Below are positions 5,636 to 9,509 of a stretch of 42,227 bases of DNA, in pieces. The stretch is from positions 1-42,227 of the forward strand of contig NZ_QEIO01000036.1 of assembly GCF_003336425.1 (NCBI RefSeq). The letters run 5' to 3'. Every line of letters begins with the position of its first letter. Within the stretch, counting starts at the first letter, position 1. The position numbers and the translations under genes are program-made. Source of the DNA: Marinitenerispora sediminis. GTDB taxonomy: Bacteria; Actinomycetota; Actinomycetes; Streptosporangiales; Streptosporangiaceae. Under the pieces are notes generated by a model, which saw nothing but the letters and a program-made list of their open reading frames with translations, was not told the origin of the DNA and searched no databases.

Positions 5636-6970
5636 GTGAGCTCAGCCGACTACCAGGACGTCCAGGCAGCCATACTCGCTCGTGCCGGCGAGTCGCTCAT
5701 CCATCCAACGCTGGACCGGATCCGCGCGGTCATGGACCTGCTCGGTGAACCGCAGCGCAACTACCGGGTCATCCATCTGACCGGGACCAACGGCAAGACG
5801 TCGACCGCGCGCATGGTCGACGCGCTGCTGCGGGAGCGGCGGCTGCGGGTCGGGCGGTACACGAGTCCGCATCTGGTGACCATGCGGGAGCGGATCGTCA
5901 TCGACGGGGAGCCGATCTCCGAGGAGGCGTTCGTCGCGACCTACCGGGACGTGCTGCCCTACGTCGAGATGGTGGACGCCCGCGGGGGTGTGCCCATGTC
6001 GTTCTTCGAGGTTCTCACGGCCATGGCGTACGCGGCGTTCGCGGACGCGCCGGTGGACGTCGCCGTCGTCGAGGTCGGTATGGGGGGCCGGTGGGACGCC
6101 ACCAACGTGGTGGACGCCGACGTCGCGGTGGTGACGCCCATCGCGATCGACCACACCGACTACCTGCCGGACACCGTCGACGGCATCGCCGATGAGAAGG
6201 GCGGCATCATCAAGCCCGGGGCCGTCGCGGTGGTCGCGCAGCAGCCGGTGGCGGCGGCCGAGGTGCTGATGCGGCGGGCCGCCGAGGTCGGGGCCCGGGT
6301 GGCGCGGGAGGGACTGGAGTTCGGTGTCGTGCACCGGGACGTCGCGCTCGGCGGGCAGCAGATCGCGCTGAAGGGGCTGCGCGGCGGGTACGACGGCGTG
6401 TTCCTGCCGCTGTTCGGCGGCCACCAGGCGAGCAACGCGGCGGTGGCGGTCGCGGCGGTGGAGGCGTTCGCCGCCCCGGGCGAGGGCGACGAGCAGCTCG
6501 ATCCGGATCTGGTGCGCACGGCGCTGGCCGGGGCCAGCTCGCCGGGGCGCATGGAGGTGGTCCGGCGCAGCCCGACCGTGCTGGTGGACGCCGCGCACAA
6601 CCCGGCGGGCATGGCCGCCACGGTGGACACCGTCCAGGAGGCGTTCACGTTCAGCCGGCTGGTCGGGGTGGTCTCCGTCATGGCGGACAAGGACGTCGAG
6701 GGCATCCTGGAGCCGCTGGAGCCGCTGCTCACCGAGATCGTGGTGACCCGCAACTCCTCTCCGCGCGCCATGGAGGTACCGGAACTGGCGCGCATCGCCG
6801 AGGACATCTTCGGGCCGGACCGGGTGCACACGGCCCCGCGGCTGGACGACGCCATCGACGCGGCCGTCACCCTCGCCGAGAGCACCGGTGAGTTCGGCGG
6901 GGCCGGGGTGCTCGTCACCGGTTCGGTGGTCACCGCCGGTGACGCGAGGCATCTCATGAAGGGGGCGTGA
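5636..6970 (+). CDS. folC: Bifunctional folylpolyglutamate synthase/dihydrofolate synthase
   Basis: FolC (444 aa) adds glutamate to dihydropteroate and to reduced folates in the cytosol, at the cost of ATP. The start is GTG 5636 behind a weak GAGAGA site. Family marks: HPTLDRI near residue 23, the ATP-binding loop TGTNGKTS (50-56, K54), YTSPHL, the Mur-ligase style TNVVDADV and AIDHTDYLP segments, DEKGGIIKPG, and VDAAHNPAG in the C-terminal domain. The length is normal. Its last four bases (GTGA) are also the start of the DUF4233 gene, so the two are coupled, and ndk follows: a conserved actinobacterial trio. In many relatives valS lies directly upstream; here it does not. Confidence 0.96.
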   Translation: MSSADYQDVQAAILARAGESLIHPTLDRIRAVMDLLGEPQRNYRVIHLTGTNGKTSTARMVDALLRERRLRVGRYTSPHLVTMRERIVIDGEPISEEAFVATYRDVLPYVEMVDARGGVPMSFFEVLTAMAYAAFADAPVDVAVVEVGMGGRWDATNVVDADVAVVTPIAIDHTDYLPDTVDGIADEKGGIIKPGAVAVVAQQPVAAAEVLMRRAAEVGARVAREGLEFGVVHRDVALGGQQIALKGLRGGYDGVFLPLFGGHQASNAAVAVAAVEAFAAPGEGDEQLDPDLVRTALAGASSPGRMEVVRRSPTVLVDAAHNPAGMAATVDTVQEAFTFSRLVGVVSVMADKDVEGILEPLEPLLTEIVVTRNSSPRAMEVPELARIAEDIFGPDRVHTAPRLDDAIDAAVTLAESTGEFGGAGVLVTGSVVTAGDARHLMKGA

Positions 6971-7350
6971 CCGTGCGGACGATGTGCGCGGTGGTACTGG
7001 CGTTCGAGGCCGTGGTGATCGCGCTGGCGGTTCCGGTGGCCATCCAGCTGGGCGGGTACTCCCCGGCGGTCGCCGGCGGCGTCTGGGGCGGGCTCGCCGC
7101 CGCGGCGCTGGTGCTCGCCGCCCTCCAGCGGTTCGCGTGGGGGCACTACGCCGGATGGGTGCTGCAGGCGGCGTTCGTCGTGAGCGGCGTCTTGGTGCCC
7201 GGTCTGTTCGTGCTGGGGATCGTCTTCGCCGCCCTGTGGGTGGCCGGCGTGTGGCTCGGTCGGCGCACCGACGCCATCCGGGCCGCCAGGGAGGCGGGCG
7301 CCTCCGCCGGGGCAGGGACCGGGGCCGCCGAGGCGCGCCGCGACGGGTGA
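6967..7350 (+). CDS. DUF4233 family membrane protein
   Basis: A 127-aa integral membrane protein with about four hydrophobic segments (about 5-27, 35-53, 62-78, 80-98) and a cytoplasmic Ala/Gly/Arg-rich tail. The start GTG 6967 overlaps the folC stop by 4 bp; a second GTG two codons on is possible. The position between folC and ndk, size and membrane layout match the DUF4233 family, which is almost confined to actinobacteria and has no known function. No catalytic motif is visible. The conserved linkage suggests it is made together with FolC; a role in folate handling would be a guess. Confidence 0.85.
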   Translation: MTVRTMCAVVLAFEAVVIALAVPVAIQLGGYSPAVAGGVWGGLAAAALVLAALQRFAWGHYAGWVLQAAFVVSGVLVPGLFVLGIVFAALWVAGVWLGRRTDAIRAAREAGASAGAGTGAAEARRDG

Positions 7351-7822
7351 CACCGCCGCCGGCGAAGACTGATCCGGCCGACCGCGCGGCCGGTGGCCCC
7401 ACGCCGCCACCGGCCAGGTGACCGGTCCGCAACCGGTAGGGTTGCGCACGACCGGGATGGCGGTTCCCAGGGCTGGTCACAGCCTCCGTGGCGTGAACGG
7501 AGAAAATGATCTCCGTGGCGTGAACGGAGAAAACGGCCTCCGTGGCGGCTACGGAGAACTGCCTCCGTGGCGGGTACGGGGAATCCGGTCTCCGTGGTGT
7601 GTACGGGACGACGGGCCTCCGTGGCGGCTGCGGAAAGCCGTCTCCGTGGCGGTACGGGGGAACGGATCTCCGTCGCGTGAACGGAGGAACCGGTCTCCCG
7701 TACGCGGGGGAGGAAGGGACCTCCGCGGCGTGAGCAGAGGCACGGACCTCCGCGGCGCACACGGGGCAGACCAGGCCACCCGGTCCACCAGTCAACATCC
7801 AGGTGTCGAGGAGACAACCACC
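7351..7822 (+). other. 472-bp intergenic region before ndk holding a palindrome array
   Basis: No separate gene is visible. The first 130 bp are GC-rich with short hairpins; the rest is mostly the repeat array described at 7484-7766. The last 56 bp lead into ndk with its ribosome site. The forward frame is open from GTG 7418 through the array into ndk, but the repeat units change frame (spacings of 25, 26 and 27 bp), so the array is conserved as DNA or RNA rather than protein. Confidence 0.7.
7484..7766. repeat. Array of about 11 imperfect palindromes, period 25-27 bp
   Basis: Units begin with CTCCGT (or a close variant) at 7484, 7511, 7538, 7563, 7590, 7617, 7642, 7668, 7695, 7721 and 7748. 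The clearest copy reads CTCCGTGGCGTGAACGGAGA: 6-bp arms CTCCGT and ACGGAG around a 7-nt centre, usually GGCGTGA or GGCGGCT. Copies 1-3 and 8 keep near-perfect arms; later copies decay (ACGGGG, GCAGAG), some still able to pair through G-T. The gaps between units are 6-8 nt, often starting with A residues. Steps are 27,27,25,27,27,25,26,27,26,27 (mean 26.4 bp, near 2.5 helical turns). Each unit can form a small hairpin in RNA, or be one site for a dimeric protein. I do not recognise the element. Confidence 0.88.
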
Positions 7823-8230
7823 GTGGAGCGCACTCTTGTCCTGATCAAGCCCGATGGCGTGCGGCGCAGCATCATCGGGGAGGTCATCTCCCGTATCGAG
7901 CGCAAGGGCCTGAAGATCGTGGCCCTGGACCTGCGCACGCTCGACGCGGACACCGCGAAGACGCACTACGAGGAGCACGCCGCCCGGCCGTTCTTCGACT
8001 CGCTGGTCGAGTTCATCACCGGCGGCCCGCTCGTGGCCATGGTGGTCGAGGGCGAGCGCGCCGTCGAGGCGTTCCGTGCGCTGGCCGGCGCGACCGACCC
8101 GGTGCAGGCCGCCCCCGGCACCATCCGCGGCGACTTCGCGCTGGAGGTCCAGCAGAACATCGTGCACGGCTCGGACTCCACCTACTCCGCCGACCGCGAG
8201 ATCAAGCTGTTCTTCCCGGAACTCGGCTGA
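7823..8230 (+). CDS. ndk: Nucleoside diphosphate kinase
   Basis: Ndk (135 aa) moves the gamma phosphate from ATP to nucleoside diphosphates through a phosphohistidine and so balances NTP and dNTP pools. The start GTG 7823 has GAGGAGA 8 nt upstream. Motifs: [12 protein letters not shown] at the N-terminus (K9 binds phosphate), and the active-site H115 in NIVHGSDS, followed by the usual A-D-R-E-I and FFPELG end. Length is standard. It lies downstream of folC and DUF4233, separated by the palindrome array, which sits where a 5' untranslated region or promoter would be. A long hairpin terminator follows at 8265. Confidence 0.97.
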
Positions 8231-8264
8231 CACACGGCGGCTCCGGCCCGCCATCCCCGCCTTC

Positions 8265-8299
8265 CGGCCGGGCGAGACCCCTCGGGTTTCGCCCGGCCG
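8265..8299 (+). terminator. Long hairpin terminator after ndk
   Basis: CGGCCGGGCGA (8265-8275) pairs with TCGCCCGGCCG (8289-8299), and the inner GACCC/GGGTT extends the stem to a 3-nt loop (one G-T pair). The sequence TATTCGTTCTC follows. It separates ndk from the mre cluster. Confidence 0.82.
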
Positions 8300-8336
8300 T
8301 ATTCGTTCTCGCAGCCCACAGAGTTCGGTGTGTTTG

Positions 8337-8366
8337 CGTAACGGTGTGACTGCTGAGCGTTACGAT
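8337..8366 (+). promoter_or_regulatory. Inverted repeat and candidate -10 upstream of mreB
   Basis: CGTAACG (8337-8343) and CGTTACG (8358-8364) are inverted copies 14 nt apart, and the second overlaps TACGAT (8361-8366), a good -10-like hexamer. It lies about 110 bp before mreB, in a stretch less GC-rich than its flanks, so a promoter with an operator is plausible. No clear -35 is seen. Confidence 0.38.
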
Positions 8367-8474
8367 ACGGGTAGCTCGGTCCGCTTCCGTGTCGGATCGG
8401 GGTCGTAATGACCGCCCTGTGCAGTAACCCGCCCCGTGTACGTCGCACCCGATTGGTGTCGCCGAGGACGTTTC

Positions 8475-9509
8475 ATGACCAATAATCTCGCCTTTCTCGG
8501 CCGCGACATGGCCGTCGATCTCGGGACCGCCAACACGCTGGTTTACGTGCGGGGCCGTGGGATCGTCCTCAACGAACCCTCGGTGGTGGCCCTGAACACG
8601 TCGACCGGGAAGATCGTCGCGGTCGGCATCGAGGCCAAGCAGATGATCGGGCGCACACCGAGCAACATCACCGCCGTGCGCCCGCTCAAGGACGGCGTCA
8701 TCGCCGACTTCGAGATCACCGAGCGCATGCTGCGCTACTTCATCCAGAAGATCCACCGGCGCAGGCACTTCGCCAAACCGCGCATCATCGTCGCGGTACC
8801 GAGCGGGATCACCTCCGTCGAGCACCGCGCGGTCAAGGAGGCCGGCTACCAGGCCGGCGCCCGCCGGGTCTACATCATCGAGGAACCCATGGCCGCCGCG
8901 ATCGGCGCCGGGCTCCCGGTGCACGAACCGACCGGCAACATGGTCGTCGACATCGGCGGCGGCACCACCGAGGTCGCCGTGATCTCCATGGGCGGGATCG
9001 TCACCTCGCAGTCCATCCGGGTCGGCGGCGACGAGCTCGACCAGGCGATCATGACCTTCGTCAAGAAGGAGTACTCCCTGATGATCGGGGAGCGCACCGC
9101 CGAGGAGATCAAGGTCGCCATCGGCTCCGCCTACCCCACGACCGCCGAGGAGCTGCACGCCGAGGTCCGCGGCCGCGACCTCATCAGCGGGCTCCCCAAG
9201 ACCGTGGTGATGTCGGCCGCCGACGTGCGGCAGGCCATCGAGGAGCCGGTCACCGCCATCATCGACGCCGTCCGAACCTCGCTGGACAAGTGCCCGCCGG
9301 AGCTGTCCGGCGACATCATGGACCGCGGCATCGCCGTGACCGGCGGCGGCGCCCTGCTGCGCGGACTCGACGAGCGGCTCCGCCACGAGACCGGAATGCC
9401 CATCCACGTGGCCGAGAACGCCCTCGACTCCGTGGCCATCGGGTCGGGCACCTGCGTGGAGAACTACGAACGCCTGAGCCAGGTGCTGATCCCGGACCGG
9501 CGTCGCTGA
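8475..9509 (+). CDS. mreB: Rod shape-determining protein MreB
   Basis: MreB (344 aa) is the bacterial actin that forms membrane-bound filaments and positions wall synthesis; in mycelial actinobacteria it acts mainly in spore-wall building. I start at ATG 8475 ([21 protein letters not shown]), which has GAGGA 6 nt upstream, rather than at the in-frame GTG 13 codons earlier. Actin-fold marks: phosphate-1 loop DLGTANT (15-21), [19 protein letters not shown], phosphate-2 [11 protein letters not shown], and the adenosine motif [14 protein letters not shown] near the C-terminus. The length matches the family. First gene of the mreBCD-mrdA-rodA unit. Confidence 0.97.

Follow-up and report, generated by a model that had tools for sequence, protein, structure and literature searches.

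Hairpin units arrayed upstream of ndk in Marinitenerispora sediminis and the probably mobile, REP-like repeat family to which they belong

The described systems closest to the repeat reported here are the REPs, the Rickettsia palindromic elements (RPEs), the cyanobacterial SDRs and the mycobacterial MIRU minisatellites. MIRUs are tandem units lying between genes, with longer units and a copy number that varies by locus, SDRs are 21–27 bp in size, and gyrase binding has been reported for enterobacterial REPs. In the account given in PMC3733652, REPs are palindromic repeats of 20–40 bp, mostly intergenic and some intragenic, which form tandem clusters, are unevenly distributed between species and contain G–T stem pairs; GTAG-type REPs are linked there to RAYT transposases, and most of the GTAG and CGTC repeats catalogued come from Proteobacteria. 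Predicted REPs are listed in three Actinomycetota genomes by a newer tool paper (PMC12306157). RPEs are described as elements of 105–146 bp found in frame inside conserved proteins as well as in intergenic positions (PMC2229807), and for the cyanobacterial SDR5 a precise insertion point is described, lying between two HIP1 nucleotides (PMC4390886).

The sequence analysed here (the window) is a stretch of 42,227 nucleotides from M. sediminis (contig NZ_QEIO01000036.1). The original prediction described eleven palindromes at 7484–7766, recurring every 26.4 bp on average, and offered three readings of them: sites for a dimeric protein spaced 2.5 helical turns apart, a string of RNA hairpins controlling ndk, or a mobile or expanding repeat. 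This interpretation was partly supported by the present analysis, the best supported of the three readings being the last: arrays are dispersed over one genome, the corresponding sites in relatives are empty, units have inserted in frame inside genes, and the units of an array resemble one another.

The array between DUF4233 and ndk

Direct reading of the sequence showed eleven hairpin units between DUF4233 and ndk, at 7484–7766, ten of them clear and one degenerate, with a mean spacing of 26.4 bp (264 bp from the first start to the last, over ten steps) (Table 1). Tandem repeat analysis of the window with TRF gave periods of 27, 52 and 79 bp over 7482–7698 with scores up to 257, the top of 90 rows, and a direct-repeat search also recovered the copies of the array. 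An inverted-repeat search of the window at default length returned no pairs, because the arms in the array are only 6 bp long. Ten units in the gap 7351–7822 matched the best copy at 14 or more of 19 positions, compared with a maximum of one and a mean of 0.034 in 1,000 dinucleotide shuffles. The predicted series of eleven periodic palindromes was thus borne out by direct reading, which showed one of them to be degenerate, and by TRF and shuffling, and the gene names DUF4233 and ndk were right by PF14017 and PF00334. A two-unit covariance model, built in part from this array itself, found it as the sole match in the window at E below 0.2. Among 29 arrays compared, the ndk array is the longest and the most decayed (within-array identity 0.65).

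Table 1. Features of the DUF4233–ndk region (positions in the window)
Feature	Position	Strand	Remarks
DUF4233 gene, upstream of the array	6967..7350	+	PF14017, 80 bits
Candidate −10-like box TAGGGT, upstream of the array	7437..7442	+	By eye
Hairpin unit 1, CTCCGT-GGCGTGA-ACGGAG	7484..7502	+	Leader ACAGC before the unit
Hairpin unit 2	7511..7529	+	
Hairpin unit 3	7538..7556	+	
Hairpin unit 4	7563..7581	+	
Hairpin unit 5	7590..7608	+	
Hairpin unit 6	7617..7635	+	
Hairpin unit 7	7642..7660	+	
Hairpin unit 8	7668..7686	+	
Degenerate unit 9, CTCCCGTACGCGGGGGAG	7695..7712	+	By eye, missed by scripts; core loop lost, ends still palindromic
Hairpin unit 10	7721..7739	+	
Hairpin unit 11	7748..7766	+	
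Ribosome-binding-site-like GAGGAG of ndk	7808..7813	+	By eye; GAGGAG also before ndk in relative G023
ndk, start GTG at 7823	7823..8230	+	PF00334, 186 bits

Boxes similar to TAGGGT were seen by eye upstream of ndk in several relatives, and a scan for a strict sigma-70 consensus found no promoter at ndk. A search of positions 6900–8500 against Rfam gave nothing above gathering score and three sub-threshold matches at E ≤ 10. On the minus strand at 7510–7557, units followed by AAAA resemble intrinsic terminators (two found, compared with 0.3 expected in shuffles).

Dispersal in one genome and empty sites in relatives

The genome from which the window comes (designated G000; 6.01 Mb in 441 contigs, completeness 99.3%) was found to carry about 45 sites, some of them weak, with a 5–7 bp stem, a loop GGCG...GA, a short spacer and 1–11 tandem copies. 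The unit measures about 27 bp (23–30 bp) and consists of a stem-loop with the loop GGCG(N)GA, often preceded by the leader ACAGC, and a short spacer. The same plan recurs with other letters (TCCGT-GGCGTGA-ACGGA, CCCGT-GGCGTGTGA-ACGGG, TGCGT-GGCGGA-ACGCA, GTCCGT-TGCGGGT-ACGGAC and CCCGT-GGTGCA-ACGGG), the core CGTGGCG and ACG being the most conserved part. A blastn search with the gap against G000 gave at least 13 places among the best 40 of 235 candidates scored, the 18-mer CTCCGTGGCGTGAACGGA had 48 matches at up to three mismatches compared with seven for its reversed control, and the two-unit model, built from 27 sequences of 11 sites, gave at least 108 matches at E ≤ 5, in several dozen loci, among the best 150 of 10,692 first-look candidates scored. 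The 45 sites kept include weak ones such as L137, L136 and the second site on C14; L138, L142, L143 and one model match on C98 were dropped before the counts, as were single 18-mer hits with two or three mismatches on C388, C5, C12, C23, C38 and C418 (at 31764). A stricter unit finder recovered only 20 arrays. The core pattern CGTGGCGN{0,5}GAACG occurred 111 times in G000 compared with 15 for its control, and it exceeded the control in most relatives too (for example 57 compared with 8 in G018), so the core pattern alone is not diagnostic. A TRF and core scan of 40 further G000 contigs (254 kb), sampled by passing over contigs with known arrays, found no new array.

On G000 contig 429, a single intergenic gap of about 300 bp contains two oppositely oriented arrays that differ in subfamily (L124:1975–2071 and 2170–2265). 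Other, different short tandem repeats, intergenic-looking, are also present in G000 at L270:5858–5933, L273:9369–9436 and L286:4475–4521, with units of 28, 25 and 20 bp.

The wider searches are summarized as follows. Over 297 genomes of the family, a search at up to two mismatches gave 25 matches in G000 and no more than three in every other genome, with controls also reaching three. The two-unit model, run over 100 genomes at E ≤ 0.01 with stricter filters, gave 54 matches in G000 and one weak match in each of five of the other 99 genomes, where about one such weak match is expected by chance; the five leave room for a few distant relics, which are possible in relatives. The search for the unit elsewhere yielded the 45 or so sites of this genome, and no comparable family was recognised by these patterns and this model in the 296 other family genomes or in the species-wide scan that follows. 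Across about 85,000 species, an exact canonical unit pair had no hits. A degenerate CCGT/ACGG unit pair, a pattern that demands those arms, misses TGCGT-type arrays and was run on a collection from which records near-identical to the window's may be excluded, matched 42 stretches; none of the 42 had two hairpin units in register, and 26 were also judged by eye. The same register counter found seven units in the ndk array and five, four, four and two in four other arrays. Across 48 loci, including L186 from G000 itself, an array was recognised by the model in G000 alone (best score elsewhere 19.5 bits compared with 65.9), and in 400 kb of G023 its best score was 20 bits. Spread by phage or plasmid was rejected as a candidate: plasmid and phage collections contained no match to the ndk array, and four viral contigs with the degenerate two-unit pattern looked chance-like by eye. 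No description of the family was found in the open literature, which was searched both by the letters of the unit and by the type of repeat, subscription papers lying largely outside this scope.

Three sequences of relatives were recorded in the course of these searches. The genome G025, of another genus and one of the five with a weak model match, has an intergenic-looking hairpin pair, CCCGC-GGCGTCA-GCGGG, with a period of 24 and the same loop plan (L098, about 1490–1545), which may be a relic or due to chance. In G015, a coding-looking stretch (L100, about 1500–1580) reads PVPAAEAVPAAEAGSV by eye and resembles units on the other strand, probably by chance or convergence. G023 has an unrelated repeat of its own, CTGGGGCGGGCCTTCACGACCCCCTGG and variants, in intergenic-looking positions in the 400-kb sample (L264:8144–8317 and L268:199–262).

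Six sites were compared with the corresponding regions of relatives, one to seven per comparison, and relatives without the insert were found at all six; movement is here deduced from presence and absence between genera. The comparison of the ndk gap showed that the array is missing in relatives. In G023, the closest genome by the ndk region (83% identity over folC–DUF4233 and 89% over ndk), the folC–DUF4233 and ndk matches lie 85 bases apart, compared with about 500 in the window, and there is no array between them; none of 14 ndk upstream regions of relatives viewed by eye had an array. Inside the coding region of dxs, whose product scores 810 bits to a solved DXS (1-deoxy-D-xylulose-5-phosphate synthase), one unit of 27 bp adds nine codons in frame and is missing from all seven relatives compared. 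The three-unit array upstream of dxs is missing in G023, and four other relatives did not align across it. A gene for an FAD-binding monooxygenase (PF01494) carries two units in frame, opposite a 54-bp gap in all four aligned relatives (a fifth gave no match); read codon by codon, the insert comprises 51 bp and one further codon. On contig C382, array one has no counterpart in G072, where the alignment is untidy, or in G085 (no match in four others), and array two has none in G085 (no match in two others). No clear target-site duplication was found at the inserts, none longer than three or four bases being seen. First units are often preceded by a run of G, by eye, and no fixed target word was seen.

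Units were also observed near the starts of two further genes. Successive 27-bp units occupy the N-terminus of a GNAT gene whose start is uncertain, and on G000 contig 390 (L131, about 1986–2089) three units with a period of 24 bp, read antisense, fall within an open frame where a biotin-carboxylase-like gene (by eye) starts, a possible N-terminal extension.

Stem pairing and likeness within arrays

The stems co-vary between arrays (TCCGT/ACGGA, CCCGT/ACGGG and TGCGT/ACGCA), and G–U pairs occur in them. In an alignment of the 45 sites (42 distinct), stem covariation was 0.230 compared with 0.123 (SD 0.017) in shuffles, none of 500 being as high, and two-sided stem changes numbered 31 compared with 14.2; slid registers were worse on both measures. 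Two further covariation measures on this set were less striking, with 12 and 86 of 500 shuffles as high. The covariation of paired bases that the original prediction proposed to look for is real when measured across arrays; its mention of some compensating G–T changes is fair for the ndk array, and two-sided changes appear between arrays.

The 45-site set takes one unit per site, often a well-paired one, so pairing is flattered in it. A second count used 29 arrays, each represented by its first unit, which was picked by the 5′ core alone regardless of pairing; pairs were counted by script on the ACG anchor. The fourth stem pair was formed in 28 of 29 units, where shuffles gave 20.1 (1 of 10,000 reaching the observed number), the third in 24, where they gave 20.3 (75 of 10,000), and the second in 14, where they gave 11.4 (1,015 of 10,000). 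For the third and fourth pairs jointly, no shuffle of 10,000 was as high, or six with duplicates removed. When identical arm pairs were counted once, leaving 20 distinct, the fourth pair was formed in 19 compared with 13.0 (10 of 10,000 as high), and the third in 15 compared with 13.7 (2,169 of 10,000), which is within chance. A hairpin constraint is supported by this unbiased count, more modestly after duplicate removal. Template switching at quasi-palindromes would yield the same covariation pattern as selection, and the covariation could come from such correction instead of selection. Of six units folded as DNA, all formed the expected stem except two, the single unit of dxs and one of the TGCGT type.

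Over 107 units of 29 arrays, identity across 26 bases was 0.79 within arrays, a figure somewhat raised by picking units with array-specific core patterns, compared with 0.53 between arrays. The period is near-constant inside each of the 29 arrays and ranges from 23 to 30 bp across them. Likeness within arrays together with an array-specific period is as expected from local tandem growth of differing units. A CRISPR array was rejected as a candidate, as the short spacers are themselves repeated within most of the arrays read.

Origin of the repeat and comparison with known systems

Taken together, these results suggest that the ndk array probably belongs to a family of mobile repeats that is REP-like and specific to its lineage, is constrained by its hairpin and expands in tandem. 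Three other explanations were weighed against it. The arrays might act as cis-acting RNA, strings of transcribed hairpins in leaders or between the genes of operons that determine how stable the mRNAs of ndk and other genes are, or how they are translated. This we consider unlikely. At both ndk and dxs the array is located downstream of a −10-like box, identified by eye, and upstream of the start codon, has the same sense as the gene and is probably a transcribed 5′ leader; boxes like the one at ndk were also seen in relatives. When folded as RNA, the ndk array scores better than the 100 shuffles compared (z −8.1), and the G–U pairs of the stems are in keeping with an RNA. Among the 34 sites lying between co-directional genes, as called by codon usage and with a few coding sites included, 22 are in the same sense and 12 in the opposite one, and this excess, like the two leader positions, would allow for a function as RNA. 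Those 12 antisense sites are nevertheless hard to accommodate, as are four sites in convergent and five in divergent gaps and those that fall inside coding regions; the remaining two of the 45 have one side unresolved, and most sites are intergenic. The predicted minimum fold of the ndk array pairs units with one another and is no plain string of hairpins, which argues against modules, and relatives have no array at ndk, by eye in the upstream regions and by the model over loci. What stands of the predicted RNA hairpins controlling ndk is thus the position of the array downstream of a shared box; the family as a whole is not bound to ndk and occurs in either orientation.

Alternatively, the palindromes might bind a dimeric or nucleoid-associated protein, or gyrase, with the arrays as docking or insulating sites. 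The marked conservation of CGTGGCG and ACG, the mixed orientation, which suits a DNA role, and the intergenic position of most arrays are consistent with this, which nonetheless appears improbable on several counts: the outer stem bases change in pairs, which is better explained by base pairing within a single strand than by recognition of a fixed sequence; units are inserted inside dxs and the oxidoreductase gene; and the repeat was not recognised in the other genomes searched. Helical phasing was rejected on the period, which is near-constant inside each array and differs from array to array, and the originally predicted dimeric-protein sites, 2.5 turns from one another, are weakened by the same observation. 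A very remote prospect is that these are ordinary minisatellites, independent local expansions by slippage that never dispersed. Likeness within arrays and the regular period of each would follow from it, and unrelated short tandem repeats do occur in G000, but a loop and stem plan common to about 45 loci, the clean insertion of a single 27-bp unit in dxs and a pattern that is not above background in the 296 other family genomes all disfavour it.

If the ndk array is a site of a mobile repeat family, as we favour, single units or short arrays would insert at new places by a route needing the hairpin in single-stranded DNA. Slippage or template switching at the hairpins would subsequently enlarge the arrays and keep the arms matched. 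At ndk the repeat would have landed between the promoter and the start codon, becoming part of the 5′ leader. Any effect of the array on ndk is probably incidental, and the repeat family can be explained without ndk being regulated. The profile PF01797, for the Y1 transposase family of RAYTs, had no match in G000 and was positive in five of 14 control genomes; possible movers are a lost transposase, an enzyme of another class or integration of single-stranded DNA. More tentatively, and with some doubt, it is conceivable that the hairpin, which at about 27 bp would rank with the smallest mobile DNAs, spreads across the chromosome and into coding genes without a REP-type transposase, by a new route such as hairpin-stabilised integration of single-stranded DNA or host template switching, and then forms arrays that homogenise themselves.

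On this evidence a hairpin family comparable to REPs has colonised one actinomycete genome in which no Y1 transposase was found, with clean insertions in conserved genes and arrays of varied length and decay. Such a family allows two questions to be put to the test: by what means DNA units as small as about 27 bp can move, and whether slippage alone can multiply a palindrome as well as repair it. It also cautions against assuming that arrays of this kind are regulatory when they lie in a 5′ leader.

Compared with the known systems, the repeat shares with mycobacterial MIRUs the tandem units between genes and a copy number that varies by locus, whereas MIRU units are longer. With RPEs it shares in-frame insertion, here in dxs and the FAD monooxygenase gene, whereas its units stand in tandem arrays and RPEs are several times longer. 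It resembles the cyanobacterial SDRs in its tiny size and precise insertion, and unlike SDR5 it has only the run of G before many first units in place of a fixed target word, tandem arrays being common. With the REP/RAYT/REPIN system it has most in common: the repeats are small (23–30 bp), palindromic, numerous, clustered, mostly intergenic but occasionally intragenic, and unevenly distributed between species, and their stems, like those of REPs, contain G–T pairs and are kept by compensating changes. A classical REP was rejected on the near absence of the tags, GTAG-type beside the stem in two of 45 units and CGTC-type in one of 45, and on the lack of a PF01797 match in G000, which sets the repeat apart from GTAG-class REPs. 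The arrays are moreover head-to-tail, whereas REPs are mainly head-to-head dimers, and unlike in REPs the period and stem differ array by array. The repeat of G000 is REP-like in behaviour and lies outside both REP superfamilies, GTAG and CGTC.
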